This document shows positions 2,008 through 35,264 of a stretch of DNA of 42,368 bases, in pieces (position 1 is the first letter of the stretch; every line of letters begins with the position of its first letter). Origin of the DNA: a virus. The stretch is from positions 1-42,368 of the IMG/VR virus record IMGVR_UViG_3300041407_000034; one strand, 5' to 3'. The notes beneath the pieces were generated by a model that saw only the letters and a program-made list of their open reading frames with translations, made no database searches and had not been told where the DNA came from. A program made the position numbers and the translations under genes.

Positions 2008-2251
2008 GGAGGGCTACCTGTCCGCATAGTAACTGCGTTACGTTGGTAGCGACTCTCGGTCACAACCCGTAGGTTCCCACTCATCCCGTGGACGGCTACG
2101 GCCGCTCGTTCCCCTGTTTTAATGGCGCGGGGATCTCAGTGCACCTGAAACCATTTAAAGCTGGCTCTCATCCACTTTGTTACTCAGCCTTGCACGTCGG
2201 TGGCTAGTACCTTTAGAGCTGGGAAGTTCGTCCCCGTATTCCATGTTCCGT
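2008..2251. other. Gene-free leader of the early operon
   Basis: Between the third host promoter and the hairpin at 1958-2007 I find only very short frames without ribosome sites. On the minus strand it contains small stems, such as AACC-TACG-GGTT with a UNCG-type loop and GTAAC-GCA-GTTAC near 2029-2041. It is best read as a structured 5' untranslated leader. Confidence 0.5.
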
Positions 2252-2279
2252 ACTTTACAGCATTTGTTCAGCTTGTCAA
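2252..2279 (-). promoter_or_regulatory. Host sigma70 promoter, third of the tandem set
   Basis: Minus strand TTGACA (2274-2279), 16-base spacer, TAAAGT (2252-2257). The bases just before the -10 (ATGCTG) match the other two promoters of the set. It reads into the 1934-173 early genes. Confidence 0.75.
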
Positions 2280-2286
2280 CCCTACT

Positions 2287-2339
2287 CGTTACATCCGCTC
2301 AGGTTAACCGCCCTAGCCTACCCGTGACATCCGTTCAGC
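2287..2339 (-). repeat. Two 22-base direct repeats between host promoters 2 and 3
   Basis: On the minus strand, CTGARCGGATGTMACGRGTA occurs at about 2318-2339 and again at about 2282-2303, 36 bases apart, followed by GG in both. The downstream copy abuts the -35 of the third promoter. Position and spacing suggest a binding site for a regulator of early transcription, or duplication together with the promoters. Confidence 0.5.
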
Positions 2340-2354
2340 TAGTCTGTGCCGCTC

Positions 2355-2382
2355 ATTCTACAGCGTTTGTTCCGTGTGTCAA
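2355..2382 (-). promoter_or_regulatory. Host sigma70 promoter, second of the tandem set
   Basis: Minus strand TTGACA (2377-2382), 16-base spacer, TAGAAT (2355-2360), with ACGCTG directly before the -10. It has the same architecture as its neighbours about 150 bases upstream and 103 bases downstream. Confidence 0.8.
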
Positions 2383-2505
2383 TCCCTTTGTTTTCGACTT
2401 CCTTATCAACACTTGGCACCCGTAGGATCGCATGTCAGAAGCTACTTACTCCAGGCAACTCCGCAGCACTTGCCGTTAGGTTCGTGCTGCTTCGTTGTGG
2501 TGCCC

Positions 2506-2533
2506 ATAGTACAGCGTTTTAACTTGCTGTCAA
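2506..2533 (-). promoter_or_regulatory. Host sigma70 promoter, first of the tandem set
   Basis: Minus strand TTGACA (2528-2533), 16-base spacer, TACTAT (2506-2511), with ACGCTG before the -10. The -35 overlaps the last codons of the 32-residue membrane gene. This cluster plays the part of the T7 A1-A3 promoters. Confidence 0.8.
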
Positions 2534-2617
2534 CACCATAAACACAGTGCACATAAACAATCCTATACACAGCCCGCCTACTACACCTATAAGGATCGCC
2601 AACAGCAGGTCGTCCAT
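2519..2617 (-). CDS. Tiny membrane protein, 32 aa
   Basis: ATG overlaps the stop of the upstream gene (TGATG), and TAA at 2519-2521 closes the frame. The product starts MDDLLLAILIGVVGGLCIGL and continues FMCTVFMVLTAS. It is almost entirely hydrophobic after two N-terminal aspartates, so one membrane span with the N-terminus probably outside. It is translationally coupled to the 188-residue gene. The first tandem host promoter overlaps its 3' end. Function unknown; it is not in the lysis cassette, so I do not call it a holin. Confidence 0.65.
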   Translation of the reverse strand: MDDLLLAILIGVVGGLCIGLFMCTVFMVLTAS

Positions 2618-3183
2618 CACGCCACCAACTTCAACTCAGGCGGCGCTTTCTTCACGTACTGGCTGAGCAGCTTCTGCAAGGCGGTATCCAGGGCGGCTTG
2701 TGCTACGTCGTCCAGGGCGAGGCGTACGGCGTACAGGTCGTGCAACAGTGCGCCAGTGAGGTGCCCAGGTTGCGTCACTGTGACACCTGCAAGTGCAGGC
2801 TCCGCTGGCTTCTTCTTAGGGTTCGCGTTCCGTACTTCTTTGATGGCGTTCCTGAGAGCTTCCATGTCCTTGCACGCGCCGACGTCAATGTGCATACGGA
2901 ATCCGGCGCGTACTGTGCTCACGTACACCTTGATAACTGCTGGCGCTGGCACATCACCAGGAACAGGGCGGCCCATGCGCTGGGACCATCCGTTCTTAGC
3001 GTACGCCTGGGTGACGAGGAGGTCGAAGTGGTGTAGGTCTGTGGTCTTGGTAGAGCGCACGGTGTCGAGGATGCCAGAGGCAATCGACTCGGAGGCAGCG
3101 TGGGCTTTCAGAAGGGAGGCGAGGACACTAGCGAGGTCAGCAGGGCGTTTAGCGCGAGGCTTGGCTGGGGTCTTGGTAGGCAT
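2617..3183 (-). CDS. Hypothetical early protein, 188 aa
   Basis: Start ATG at 3183 is chosen because GGAG lies eight bases upstream. An ATG 11 codons earlier lacks such a site. The N-terminus is a basic Pro/Ala/Lys arm (PTKTPAKPRAKRP), followed by a helical region at about 15-55, a central mixed region with VIKVYVSTVRAGFRMHIDVG at about 85-103, a second Lys-rich linker, and a C-terminal helical part. The arm is typical of nucleic-acid-binding proteins. No family is recognised. It is the last larger gene of the first early operon, coupled by TGATG to the 32-residue membrane gene. Confidence 0.75.
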   Translation of the reverse strand: MPTKTPAKPRAKRPADLASVLASLLKAHAASESIASGILDTVRSTKTTDLHHFDLLVTQAYAKNGWSQRMGRPVPGDVPAPAVIKVYVSTVRAGFRMHIDVGACKDMEALRNAIKEVRNANPKKKPAEPALAGVTVTQPGHLTGALLHDLYAVRLALDDVAQAALDTALQKLLSQYVKKAPPELKLVA

Positions 3184-3235
3184 GGCTGAATCTCCGTAAG
3201 GGTGTGCGGTGTGCACACCCTAGAGATTAGTCCGG

Positions 3236-3457
3236 CTACTTGGTTTTGCAACTACCGTCTGTCTTCTCACGTCGGAGCTGCTCGTCGACCGCTGTACCTA
3301 AGCTACCACAGCGGATGGTGCAGTACGTGGGCCCATTCTTAGGCAGTGGTAGGGACCATCCGTGTGGGCCGTACCCGGGCTCTACACCGGGTGCCTTCCA
3401 ACCCTCAGCGAGCAGCCAGTCCTCCAACCGCCGCTGGATGCGTGCAGCCCTGCTCAT
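3236..3457 (-). CDS. Hypothetical early protein, 73 aa
   Basis: ATG at 3457 overlaps the stop of the preceding gene as TGATG, which fixes the start. The protein opens with a basic helix (SRAARIQRRLEDWLLAEGW), then a Gly/Pro-rich segment and a C-terminal charged tail with two cysteines. The helix followed by a compact Gly/Trp segment could form a small nucleic-acid- or protein-binding module. I recognise no family. Confidence 0.7.
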   Translation of the reverse strand: MSRAARIQRRLEDWLLAEGWKAPGVEPGYGPHGWSLPLPKNGPTYCTIRCGSLGTAVDEQLRREKTDGSCKTK

Positions 3458-4020
3458 CACCAGCGCTCCTTGCGGTACCACGGACGCGGTTTGCGTTTCG
3501 ACGAGCCGGGAGTACAGGCCCACCCTGGACCGTGCTCCACCTCATCCAGGATGAGTACGTCTGCACGTTTACCTGCGTACAGTGCACCGAACATGCGGCG
3601 CTTAGCCTCCACCCGGTCGACACCCTGCGCATCCGCCGCGCACTGGTAGATGTCGTGCCCTCGTCCGTGTGGTGCACTCAGGGCCTGCATGATCCGCCGA
3701 GAGTCCACGGTGTGGCGCGGTATCTGTTGGAGGTTCGGCGTACTGCTACGCACGGTCGCGCCGTACGCCACACCATGCCCTTTATCCGGCGCCGTCACGA
3801 GTATTACATCCAGCATGCGTACGACGGTGTACCCGTCTGCCTCCAGGATGGCTACCGCGCGCTCTGTGGCCTCAGCAAACTGACGCTGGGCTGCGATGTA
3901 CTGCGGGATACTGCACGACATATCGACGCCCACTACGGCCCGCTCACGGTCCTCTAGCTTGGCATCGCAATGTGCCCGGTTCAGCTCGTCACACTCACAA
4001 TGACTGCACTTGCAACCCAT
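3457..4020 (-). CDS. Orphan protein with family A DNA polymerase motifs but no palm motif A or C, 187 aa
   Basis: Residues 91-102 (RSSTPNLQQIPR) match the conserved NLQxIP segment of family A polymerases. Residues 108-119 (SRRIMQALSAPHG) resemble the stretch that follows it. Residues 123-150 resemble the fingers: DIY for DIH, then an O-helix with R136, K140 and F144 at the spacing of T7 polymerase R518, K522 and Y526, ending ALYAG. The palm motif A (DYSxxE) normally between these blocks is absent, and so is motif C (HDE). The N-terminus has a cysteine cluster (C3, C5, C8, C10) that may bind metal. The genome also has a complete polymerase at 32931-35264, so this is a second, catalytically incomplete relative. 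Polymerase activity is very unlikely. Nucleotide or template binding is possible. Confidence 0.75.
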   Translation of the reverse strand: MGCKCSHCECDELNRAHCDAKLEDRERAVVGVDMSCSIPQYIAAQRQFAEATERAVAILEADGYTVVRMLDVILVTAPDKGHGVAYGATVRSSTPNLQQIPRHTVDSRRIMQALSAPHGRGHDIYQCAADAQGVDRVEAKRRMFGALYAGKRADVLILDEVEHGPGWACTPGSSKRKPRPWYRKERW

Positions 4021-4022
4021 GA

Positions 4023-4547
4023 TTAATACCCTGCCCAGTTACGTAGCTCTTGGTAGTCGGTGAACTCTTGTGTCGAGTCTATATCCGTGTCGTGGCGCAC
4101 CTGGACGCGCCACAGGCCGTGACTCACTGAGGTAGCGCCTATGTACCAGTCATGCTGCTTAGCCCATCGTATCTCCGCTGTAGTCAGGCCAACAGCGAGT
4201 ACAGGCGAGGTGCACTTAGGGCAGCTGGGTTTGCCGCCTACACCGAACAACTCCTCCGGTGTGTAGTCACCCGAGTTCAGCATAGCCGTTTCAGCTGGCG
4301 TTGGTTTACAGCACGGCCGCTCCCACTTGCACATGCTCTCCGCTACCTGCTCACCAGGAACCGCAGGCATCACGTACAACTCAATGCGTACCGCTGCTGC
4401 GCCCTGTACGGCGCCCTCAACGGCTTTAGTGTAATCAGCGAGGCCCTTGCGTACATCCAGGTACTCACGTTGTGCTAGCGAGCCGTCAGAGGCTTCCAGC
4501 TCCAGGATGTACCGTTGGGTGTTGGGTACTACAGTTGGTTCGATCAT
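4023..4547 (-). CDS. Hypothetical zinc-ribbon-like early protein, 174 aa
   Basis: Start ATG at 4547 has GGAG at good distance, and the longer frame would run back over a promoter. Residues 1-65 look alpha/beta. Then come two cysteine clusters, CKWERPCC and CPKC (about 40 residues apart), consistent with a zinc site. The C-terminal third is Trp-rich and beta-like (LWRVQVRHDTDID). No catalytic motif is recognised. A sigma70 promoter at 4574-4601 sits directly upstream, so this and the following genes may be expressed very early. Confidence 0.7.
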   Translation of the reverse strand: MIEPTVVPNTQRYILELEASDGSLAQREYLDVRKGLADYTKAVEGAVQGAAAVRIELYVMPAVPGEQVAESMCKWERPCCKPTPAETAMLNSGDYTPEELFGVGGKPSCPKCTSPVLAVGLTTAEIRWAKQHDWYIGATSVSHGLWRVQVRHDTDIDSTQEFTDYQELRNWAGY

Positions 4548-4573
4548 GGGAACTCTCCAGGGTTTGTGCTGGC

Positions 4574-4601
4574 ACTGTACCAACACGGTGTAATATGTCA
4601 A
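4574..4601 (-). promoter_or_regulatory. Host sigma70 promoter upstream of the 4547 gene
   Basis: Minus strand TTGACA (4596-4601), 16-base spacer, TACAGT (4574-4579), 27 bases before the start codon at 4547. The 16-base spacer is the same as in the three promoters near 2.2-2.5 kb. Confidence 0.7.
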
Positions 4602-4792
4602 GCCCACCAGTCCTGATCGAACGCATCACCTCGGCGGGCGTACATCAACAGGACGCCATGACCGAACCGCACATCCTGGACCACCGAGGCGCTACGCTTG
4701 AACGTAAAGCCCGGTTTAGCGTACCACTGGCGCTTACGCGCAGCTGCCTCCTGCCACTGCGCACGACTCTGCCTATCCATCGCCGAGAGCAT
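4598..4792 (-). CDS. Small early protein, 64 aa
   Basis: ATG at 4792 overlaps the preceding stop (TGATG), with GGAGG seven bases before it. The product is basic in its first 30 residues (MDRQSRAQWQEAAARKRQW), then GFTFKRSASVVQDVRFGHGVLLMYARRG and an acidic, Trp-rich end. No family is recognised. Confidence 0.7.
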   Translation of the reverse strand: MLSAMDRQSRAQWQEAAARKRQWYAKPGFTFKRSASVVQDVRFGHGVLLMYARRGDAFDQDWWA

Positions 4793-32592: not shown

Positions 32593-32934
32593 CTAGAACG
32601 GGATATCATCGTCGAACGGGTCGAGGGCTTTCGGGCCGCCGATGAGGGCGTACAGCGCGTCCCGCTCAGGGCCGGGGAACAGTCCTGTGATGGCGCCGGT
32701 AGGGTCCTGGAGCGCGGCCAATGCGTCGTACAACGCCTCGTACCGCGCAGTGTCTGGGTGCGGGGTGTCGTCCTCTCGCACAATGCTGATGAGTTCCGCG
32801 TATACGGCGATAGTTTCGCCGTTCTCGTCCCGCAATTGCCACACACGAGGGGCGATGTTCTCGACATAAGCAACGTCGGTGTGGGTCGTTGTCTCTACGT
32901 CGCCCGCGACGTGGTATTGAACTGTGTATTTCAA
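32593..32934 (-). CDS. Small protein ending in a perfect SSB-type C-terminal tip, 113 aa (TTG start)
   Basis: TTG overlaps the DNA polymerase stop, with AAGGAAG eight bases upstream. The first 55 residues look like a small beta domain (KYTVQYHVAGD, VWQLRDENGETIAVYAE), then two helices. The last residues, DPFDDDIPF, reproduce the tail of bacterial SSB (DFDDDIPF), which binds the many SSB-partner proteins. The body does not look like a normal SSB OB domain and is short for one. It may be the phage ssDNA-binding protein or a mimic that recruits or blocks host repair and replication proteins. Confidence 0.75.
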   Translation of the reverse strand: MKYTVQYHVAGDVETTTHTDVAYVENIAPRVWQLRDENGETIAVYAELISIVREDDTPHPDTARYEALYDALAALQDPTGAITGLFPGPERDALYALIGGPKALDPFDDDIPF

Positions 32935-35264
32935 TGGATTACTTCCTTGGCGTACATGGATGGTCCGGCCTCAGCAACTGCTGGGAATGGTACGTGCGAG
33001 ATGTTGTACCCCAGCTCACGGGACATATAGAGCGGTGCGTCCTCCAATATCGCTTTAGCAGCGAGGCCCACTTCGCGGAACACATCTTTGTGACAATCGA
33101 AGTACAGGGCGTCGTGCACGTTGTTAATAATGAAGAACTTCTTGAGGAACTCCGGGTGCTGAATAGCCCAGCGCATTACACGCCCGGCGCTCAACGTCAT
33201 GAGATACCCCGCCTCACCTTGGCACCAGTAGTTGGCGATTTGCGTAGGCTTGTAGTCCAACTCACGGCGGCGTGTCTCGGCGTTCCACACGTCGAACTGA
33301 CGGAAGCTGTAGCACGTCCCGCCGTCTGCTTGGTACCAACCACGACGGTACACGCGGAAGTTACCCACGTCGTCCTGCTCACGGCACAGACCCTTGGCGC
33401 TATTACCCGTCTTCACCACTTCCTGGTACACCACGTCCCGGAACGCAATAGCGCGAGGGAACAGGCGTGCCTCAGTAGCCAGGAACTCCTCGGCGTACTC
33501 CAGCGCAACACCAGTAGCGAACGCAATACCGTGCGCGGAGGCGCCGTACTGCGCAGCAAACGACGGCGGCTTGATGTCCGTCCGCATCTGCTTGTACGCC
33601 TTGTGGTCTGGGTGGCTGTGGTTCGTGCACTTCTCAAGCACCGACTCGTACGACTCTTTGAGCTTCGCAGCAAGGCGGATGCAGTGCATGTCATCGCCGT
33701 TAATCAAGTGCTTCAACAGCGCTTGGTCACCGGACAACGCAGCGAGCATTACAACTTCCAGGGCGGAGTAATCCACCTCGATAATCACACCGTCGTCGCC
33801 GAAGCGGGAGGTGAACATCTGCTTGACCTTAGACGTACCGTCCCGGGGCAAGTTCTGGAGGTTCGGGTTACTGGACGACAGGCGCCCGGTAGTGGTGGCG
33901 CAGGTGTTCAAGCTGTGATGGATAATCCCATCCGGCCCGACGTACTGCAACATCCCTTTAGTCTTCTTGATAGAGCCGTCAGGGTTGTACTCGTGCGAGA
34001 TGTAGTACGTCCCGTTGTCCTTGTCGAGCTGGGCCTTGCGGTTCAGGAGCTTACCGGCTGCGAAGCCGTGTACCGCCAGAGCCTCAAGTACCTCCTTGCT
34101 CGTACCAAACACCGGAGTACCACACGGTAGGAATCGCTTCCCAACGTACTCACCGTTCCGCCGTGCGTTCGGATCAAAGGCGAACTTCTCAGCCAGGACC
34201 TTGGGCATCTTGTCTATAGGTAGCAGCCCGGGGAACTTGAACGTAGTGTCTGCCCACTTGGTCTGCGGCGTATCCGTCACGACCTTATGCGGCTTCAACT
34301 GCCCCTTGTTCTTACCAGCGCTGTACCGGTCGCACGGACCAAACTCACAGCAGGCTGTCTCGAAAGTCTCGGCGGTCATACCCTCTACCGGGAGATAGAC
34401 CTGCCCGAACTTGTAGTAGTCCTGCTTCTCGTACATGACGTTGCCATCAGCGTCTGTACGTGGCACACGGTGCTGGTACTTCACCTCCCCACCGAACAGT
34501 AGCGCCGACATATGGAAGTCCGAGCCCCAGTTCCACTCGAAAGTATCAGGGAGTGCAGGCTTGAGGCCCTCAATCTGGGCATCGATAACGACCAGTTCTG
34601 CGAGCTGCTCTGCATGGTTCTTCTGCGCCACCTGCTGGTTCACGTACAACCCAGCAGCCTCACAGAACGCGAAGCACACCATACCCTCGCAACGCTCCAG
34701 GAACATGCGCCACATGCCCATTTCAACGAGGTATTTCATTTGACCGTAGAAGCACTTCCCAGTGTTCTCAATGTCGCCTGACGGCCCCATGAGGTACTCG
34801 TACAACAGTGCCGGGTCGATGTCGGCGGTGAGCACACCGCGTTCCCACTCCAGCTTAACGGCGTCCACCTTAGGCGTACCACCGTGCTTTTGTGCAACCT
34901 CGTTAAGTGCTGGATACGTCCACGTCTGGTGACTACACAGGTACTCAGCCAGCTGTGTACACAGCACACGGCCACCACGCTTGAGGAACTTCAACAGTTC
35001 TGGTTGATAACGGGTGATGAACCATGAGAGTTCGTACATGGCGTTGTGACATACAAGGATGTCCACGCCGTCCAGGTTAAACCACGCCGGGTCGTCGGCT
35101 TCCTCTCGGTTGTTAAACCGGATGCTCTGCCCTTCCCCCTGCACGCCGTCCACGTCGTCGCGCCAACCGGCTAGGACGATGTAGTTATCTGGGCAGTGCG
35201 CGGAGGCCATGGCGCCGAGGTACGGGTGGTTCTGCGTTTCAAGGTCGAGGATACGCGTCCGCAT
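32931..35264 (-). CDS. Family A DNA polymerase with 3'-5' exonuclease, 777 aa
   Basis: T7 gp5-type replicase. The proofreading domain starts at the N-terminus (RILDLET, D7 and E9; DILVCHNAMYELSWF as ExoII). The polymerase domain shows SSNPNLQNLPR, motif A VIIEVDYSALEVV (Asp at about 497), a fingers region ending PPSFAAQYG, and motif C NVHDALYFD (about 717). Motif A reads DYSALE rather than DYSQIE. The length is close to the 800-residue phiKMV enzyme. TAATG joins it to the gene before, and its stop overlaps the SSB-tail gene. Confidence 0.97.
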   Translation of the reverse strand: MRTRILDLETQNHPYLGAMASAHCPDNYIVLAGWRDDVDGVQGEGQSIRFNNREEADDPAWFNLDGVDILVCHNAMYELSWFITRYQPELLKFLKRGGRVLCTQLAEYLCSHQTWTYPALNEVAQKHGGTPKVDAVKLEWERGVLTADIDPALLYEYLMGPSGDIENTGKCFYGQMKYLVEMGMWRMFLERCEGMVCFAFCEAAGLYVNQQVAQKNHAEQLAELVVIDAQIEGLKPALPDTFEWNWGSDFHMSALLFGGEVKYQHRVPRTDADGNVMYEKQDYYKFGQVYLPVEGMTAETFETACCEFGPCDRYSAGKNKGQLKPHKVVTDTPQTKWADTTFKFPGLLPIDKMPKVLAEKFAFDPNARRNGEYVGKRFLPCGTPVFGTSKEVLEALAVHGFAAGKLLNRKAQLDKDNGTYYISHEYNPDGSIKKTKGMLQYVGPDGIIHHSLNTCATTTGRLSSSNPNLQNLPRDGTSKVKQMFTSRFGDDGVIIEVDYSALEVVMLAALSGDQALLKHLINGDDMHCIRLAAKLKESYESVLEKCTNHSHPDHKAYKQMRTDIKPPSFAAQYGASAHGIAFATGVALEYAEEFLATEARLFPRAIAFRDVVYQEVVKTGNSAKGLCREQDDVGNFRVYRRGWYQADGGTCYSFRQFDVWNAETRRRELDYKPTQIANYWCQGEAGYLMTLSAGRVMRWAIQHPEFLKKFFIINNVHDALYFDCHKDVFREVGLAAKAILEDAPLYMSRELGYNISHVPFPAVAEAGPSMYAKEVIH

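Follow-up and report, generated by a model that had tools for sequence, protein, structure and literature searches.

How does a phage that already encodes a complete family A DNA polymerase come to carry a second, small protein with pieces of the polymerase fingers and no catalytic palm, and could that protein have a polymerase-related role? The question arises in an uncultivated Pseudomonas-type phage, represented by a 42,368-base virus record (IMGVR_UViG_3300041407_000034), the whole of which is called the window here; its genes are encoded on the minus strand. The DNA polymerase shares 86 to 87% identity with that of Pseudomonas phages MR5 to MR18 and phiB1_1, which belong to the Autographiviridae, Krylovirinae. 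The protein under study is called P0001 below, and G001 denotes record IMGVR_UViG_3300034127_000007, whose 365-aa protein (L038:1344-2441) is the only relative of P0001 found at the same locus. The genes concerned are the following.

3457..4020, minus strand: P0001, a 187-aa ORF with an ATG start, coupled on both sides
4023..4607, minus strand: upstream coupled gene, 194 aa; in G001, a module homologous to it is joined to the tail
3236..3458, minus strand: short downstream ORF, overlapping the P0001 stop codon (TGATG)
2617..3216, minus strand: the conserved early gene that comes next, 199 aa, with 77% identity to its counterpart in G001 and 52% to that in MR5/phiB1_1
32931..35264, minus strand: full family A DNA polymerase of the phage, 777 aa, from which the P0001 piece does not derive

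The ORF is real, as an earlier note made from the DNA letters had claimed, and so is its coupling to its neighbors. Reading from 4020 to 3457, it starts 2 nt past the TAA of the upstream gene (TAA-2 nt-ATG), and its stop codon overlaps the start of the next ORF (TGATG). An AAGGAG sits in the final codons of P0001 (window 3457-3475), eight bases before that overlapping start codon. The codon-position GC of P0001 resembles that of the neighboring genes.

The protein had also been called early. Past the terminase and lysis-type genes, at about 9.4 to 6.5 kb, comes a run of small genes at about 5.4 to 2.6 kb, in which the gene at 3216-2617, the anchor of the synteny, matches MR5 gp06, located at 1.5 to 2.1 kb in the MR5 genome. 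This gene order and the gp06 match would therefore put P0001 in the left-end region, presumably early; synteny with MR5-type genomes is the one basis on which it is probably an early gene. The earlier note was also right that the full polymerase lies elsewhere and has different versions of the motifs, while the distance it gave, 29 kb, is one of contig coordinates: gene order relative to MR5 suggests that the contig is a permuted circle, on which the polymerase would lie about 10.6 kb downstream. An origin of P0001 by recent duplication of the polymerase encoded elsewhere in this phage was considered and rejected, since the motifs differ. Three promoter-like TTGACA sites (10 to 11 of 12 matches) cluster on the minus strand at window 2250-2570, adjoining a stretch that resembles several Pseudomonas T7-like phages and is the left genome end in some. 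PADLOC gave no match.

Within P0001, the parts are arranged as follows.

3769..4020, minus strand: residues 1-84, the N-terminal part, with a Cys-rich start MGCKCSHCECDELNRAHC and a predicted alpha-beta-beta segment
3715..3750, minus strand: residues 91-102, motif 1 (template/primer binding), RSSTPNLQQIPR, found by Pfam, tblastn, PSSM and hhalign
3664..3714, minus strand: residues 103-119, site of the missing palm motif A region (about 30 to 35 aa relative to polymerases)
3577..3654, minus strand: residues 123-148, N-helix/O-helix core DIYQCAADAQGVDRVEAKRRMFGALY, with R136, K140, F144 and Y148
3460..3579, minus strand: residues 148-187, the C-terminal tail, sharing 62% identity with the relative in G001

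Residues 1-84 have no polymerase similarity. Farther along, RSSTPNLQQIPR matches family A motif 1 (R-L-S-S-x-x-P-N-L-Q-x-I/L-P), with a PSSM block score of 22.8 bits, and R136, K140, F144 and Y148 match motif B, the O-helix signature R-x3-K-x3-F/Y-x3-Y, at the usual spacing R-x3-K-x3-F-x3-Y. All the residues named in the earlier note (R91 to R102 as RSSTPNLQQIPR, plus R136, K140 and F144) are present, as is Y148. Motif A (DYSxxE) and motif C (HDE), each with a catalytic Asp, are missing from the translation, also as claimed; an LDEV at residues 158-161 comes directly after the O-helix, which is not the motif C position. Residues 89-118 align with a 30-residue stretch of E. coli Pol I, and where Taq has the conserved motif-1 arginine, R573, the ungapped alignment places T89. 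Residues 107-117 can be read either as the strand before motif A (E. coli alignment) or as the helix after it (hhalign, which skips the motif A region); DYSxxE is gone under both placements.

Is this homology or coincidence? The Pfam DNA_pol_A profile (PF00476) matches P0001 at residues 90-119 only (15.2 bits, E 0.011, under the curated whole-domain cut-off of 34.3 bits), and the excised polymerase segment at 18.2 bits (E 0.0013). In NCBIfam, the first half of the segment matches DNA polymerase I and the second half a bifunctional exonuclease/polymerase. When residues 91-163 (73 aa) were searched by tblastn against 50,697 phage records, the matches were mostly DNA polymerases, some by the first half only and some (Naca, Ligma and DSS3P8) by the second only; the Thonko polymerase was matched by both. 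By hhalign, a profile of eight family A polymerases aligned with residues 90-153 at 94.7% (E 6e-8), skipping motif A.

The order of the blocks adds to this. A two-block PSSM (motif 1 and O-helix, order required) was used to score 4,208 frames (550,000 aa); P0001 reached 34.3 bits, compared to 21.6 bits for the best unrelated frame, and only DNA polymerases and polymerase fragments came near or above it. T7-type RNA polymerases, which are distant relatives, scored up to 26 bits. None of 300,000 shuffled versions of P0001 reached 34.3 bits, the maximum being 27.2. Motif 1 alone is not decisive, because the VSW-3 primase gene contains a wrong frame with a similar score (11.6 bits and E 1.6e-3 with DNA_pol_A motif 1; 20.6 bits with the PSSM). 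That match, at L069:695-1255 (L053), was at one point a candidate second polymerase motif in VSW-3 and was rejected as a wrong frame inside the primase gene; it is a warning against reliance on motif 1 alone.

Structure prediction contributed little. The single-sequence AlphaFold model of P0001 (mean pLDDT 39) has helices at 120-132 and 136-148, at low confidence, and Foldseek on this weak model was uninformative, with no significant match and none in family A. A plasmid search gave only weak polA matches and nothing relevant. From the sequence comparisons, then, residues 90-153 or so are very probably homologous to the fingers of family A polymerases, with the palm missing.

Set beside known family A DNA polymerases (PF00476: T7 gp5, E. 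coli Pol I, Taq and the actinophage and roseophage enzymes), P0001 shares the motif-1 peptide SSTPNLQQIPR and the N and O helices, with the R/K/F/Y spacing and the order right; its closest matches are the phage polymerases of Thonko, Naca, Ligma and DSS3P8. It differs in having no motif A, motif C, palm, thumb or exonuclease in its 187 aa, in the replaced motif-1 arginine, and in N- and C-terminal modules of its own. Split phage polymerases, such as that of Moonbeam, with a homing endonuclease gene between the ORFs, also have polymerase domains as separate ORFs. There, however, the parts jointly make one polymerase, whereas the phage of P0001 has a complete polymerase and the P0001 piece is palm-less. 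In phiB1_1 and close relatives, the DNA polymerase gene is in two ORFs with an insertion of about 0.7 kb (MT354570.1 10244-13274; L036, L049 and L050). The family A polymerase of IMGVR_UViG_3300009504_001076 (L001:2334-4586) has an apparent intein in the O-helix motif (NFGL/CVAAGQRVLTHVG ... KIVSNC/FGMG).

The ends of P0001 match other genes. Over its first 22 to 26 or so residues, the protein resembles the opening of a different small gene in phage Misse, and this N-terminal start also has a similar stretch in VSW-3. The G001 protein joins the module of the upstream gene, as its N-terminal half, to a P0001-like C-terminal tail of 40 residues, 62% identical to P0001 148-187; the O-helix is absent, and the core is thus not kept in the sole locus relative. 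These matches (the Misse and VSW-3 start, and the G001 tail without an O-helix) therefore mark P0001, as judged from sequence, as a mosaic protein. Across this phage group, early genes swap the modules YTLELE..SEAVGSMDKW and HDWY..LRAWAGY in differing combinations (window 4023-4607, L038:1344-2441, L036:559-1329 and L039:13669-14382). A motif-1-like peptide in the G001 protein, GRWSSQYPNPANLPKDG, is suggestively placed, but we rejected it as a polymerase motif, since its 19.7 bits fall within the wrong-frame range. MR5, phiB1_1, phi-2 and G002 have no P0001 counterpart at the locus, and scans of IMG/VR and bacterial genomes with P0001, the polymerase segment, the tail and the neighbors gave no further homologue.

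For the tail shared with G001, dN is 0.40 and dS is 1.93, a ratio that suggests constraint. Part of this conservation may be that of an embedded translation signal, not of the protein, because the final 18 nt differ little between the two and include the Shine-Dalgarno-like AAGGAG for the TGATG-start ORF. For the polymerase piece, selection is not demonstrable by comparison, given that the sole locus relative is without the O-helix. The argument of the earlier note against simple decay thus holds for the intact ORF and not for the polymerase piece, since what G001 keeps is the tail.

Of palm-less homologues, which the earlier note had thought worth seeking, the locus offered none, but small phage proteins with the same core and without motif 1 occur elsewhere. 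PHROG_16320 (100 aa, no annotated function) matches P0001 residues 111-161, and by following it and its relatives, we drew up a group whose 12 members in our counts are 4MG_032, KpS11_037, Kashira_00230, CHOED_046, NVP1121O_202, NVP1264O_39, T4S1 ORF37, LAh8_133, APT65_00091, VPHG_00085, RYC VCPH_00025 and PH357. The small O-helix proteins are 50 to 157 aa long, the smallest (50 aa) being in phage 11895-B1; all are annotated as hypothetical, and Pfam has a name for none. Their phages are Vequintavirinae (4MG, KpS11, Kashira and GAP31), Vibrio phages (CHOED, 1.121.O, 1.264.O, RYC and 11895-B1), Aeromonas phages LAh_8 and APT65, Zobellviridae (T4S1 and 1.264.O) and Pseudoalteromonas phage PH357. 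The loci are L067:2510-2809, L080:974-1285, L075:941-1333, L076:1480-1734, L078:1135-1368, L079:1144-1419, L082:2504-2734, L083:2447-2818, L074:974-1369, L084:2231-2704, L085:2492-2644 and L086:2426-2614.

The core of the group has the pattern D.H...A..G..R..AK...Y...Y; all 12 members keep the D, H, A, R, A and K, and the end is Y or W. A PSSM built from the 12 members alone was run over 6,913 frames (702,674 aa). After the members themselves came family A polymerases (39.3, 29.0, 25.0 and 21.4) and then P0001 (21.3), followed by more family A polymerases and the O-helices of T7-type RNA polymerases. An unrelated position first appeared at 6.0. The core consensus matches 144 records of the phage collection, small hypothetical proteins first and family A polymerases next. 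By hhalign, the group aligned with the polymerase profile at 37.7% (E 3.4e-4) in the right register, and P0001 aligned with the group at only 28% (E 6e-4). The P0001 core is identical at up to 12 of 26 positions to polymerases and at up to 11 of 26 to the group.

In Taq polymerase, His639, Arg659 and Lys663 contact the triphosphate (PMC7155079). The small proteins keep these contacts of the fingers (H, R and K), and in P0001, R136 and K140 match Arg659 and Lys663, while the invariant H of the group is Y125. Like the group, P0001 has a free-standing, palm-less N/O-helix core in a phage that also has a family A match; unlike the group, it is more than a core, with motif 1 and an 84-aa N-terminal part. 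The group members are without motif 1 and mostly shorter, with flanks unrelated to those of P0001.

All 12 member phages have a family A match, 9 of them over the Pfam cut-off (raw counts; the 12 phages are not independent of one another), and in 10 of the 12 the polymerase has the O-helix motif. The small protein is therefore probably not a missing part of the phage polymerase. Some of the small genes adjoin replication or nucleotide-metabolism genes; in LAh_8 and APT65, the gene is flanked by a short "DNA polymerase" ORF (168 to 187 aa) on one side and a dCTP deaminase gene on the other. Those short ORFs (L083:1884-2447 and L074:453-959) are separate from the main polymerase gene and apparently encode an exonuclease part. 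For CHOED_046, AlphaFold gave a model with pLDDT 64, for which the top Foldseek matches were spliceosome-subunit chains and homeodomains (E about 1). With VIA-align, this model matched the Bacillus Pol I large fragment (Z 3.2, rmsd 3.9, 44 aligned) among homeodomains with like scores; we rejected that match as support because in its register (1-48 with 700-744) the two O-helices are not superposed. In the open literature, with most subscription journals outside the coverage, no description of a free-standing O-helix or palm-less polymerase protein was found.

How, then, should P0001 be read? One can envision that a fragment of some other phage's polymerase gene became trapped between common N- and C-terminal modules through illegitimate recombination and that the frame simply stayed open, the piece having no polymerase-related role. 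The ends of P0001, matching different genes in different phages (Misse and VSW-3 for the start and G001 for the tail), are consistent with this, as are the mosaic state of the neighboring early genes, including the upstream gene fused to the tail in G001, and the lack of P0001 at the locus in MR5, phiB1_1, phi-2 and G002. However, the piece is ordered and in frame and keeps R136, K140, F144 and Y148 although it has no close database polymerase match, and other phages conserve free-standing cores like it. We regard such a captured scrap as a strong rival reading, quite possible, with the odds somewhat against it.

It is unlikely that P0001 is instead directed at the host, mimicking the fingers of bacterial Pol I and titrating a Pol I partner, the template or dNTPs. 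A probably early position and the alignment of residues 89-118 to E. coli Pol I would fit such an antagonist, but the O-helix part is nearer to phage and actinophage polymerases, with no insert between the N and O helices, and small core proteins occur in phages with a family A match of their own. Even less probable, in our judgment, is chance or convergence, in which a helix-turn-helix-like stretch (A..xGV.R.eAK) would happen to follow an accidental PNLQxIP peptide. Wrong-frame motif-1 matches do exist, as in VSW-3, and the model of a small member weakly resembles generic DNA-binding helical folds; against this, the two ordered blocks score far above all unrelated frames and all shuffles, and the polymerase profile spans both blocks.

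The reading we prefer, at a probability of roughly 45%, is that P0001 is a palm-less fingers module acting with or on a family A polymerase. In its favor, the two ordered polymerase blocks stand far above chance and each half finds family A independently; against it, the polymerase piece has no orthologue, and Y125 and T89 replace the H and the motif-1 arginine. The small parallel proteins of other phages make such a function more plausible, and we place a polymerase-related role of P0001 in its own phage a little short of even odds. The comparisons establish the homology, the loss of the palm, the intact coupled frame and the occurrence of other small phage proteins with this core; function, partner and ligand we infer. 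On this reading, P0001 is a chimera of a Cys-rich N-terminal module, a palm-less polymerase piece and a tail common to its locus relative, in which motif 1 runs directly into the N and O helices of the fingers, and it cannot polymerize. We imagine that its likelier partner would be the phage polymerase, ahead of host Pol I, and that it might, for example, present the O-helix surface as a decoy or bind a dNTP/triphosphate or the template.

The group of small O-helix proteins is a more valuable result than P0001 itself. The most economical view of their function is that of a fingers module on its own, which would bind a nucleotide or the template, or contact the polymerase. We tentatively propose, as a possibility that falls short of probable, that phages encode a free-standing class of proteins made of the fingers N/O-helix hairpin, palm-less and with all the triphosphate contacts, found only together with a family A polymerase, that tunes polymerase activity, fidelity or nucleotide supply; P0001 would be a larger version with the template-binding motif 1. 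Should P0001 be merely a captured scrap, it still illustrates clearly how phages assemble early genes from pieces. If the fingers hairpin works alone, it would give phages a new means of regulating or mimicking a replicative polymerase and would make a minimal system for testing palm-free O-helix binding, and the "hypothetical proteins" of Vequintavirinae and of marine Vibrio and Aeromonas phages become one testable group.
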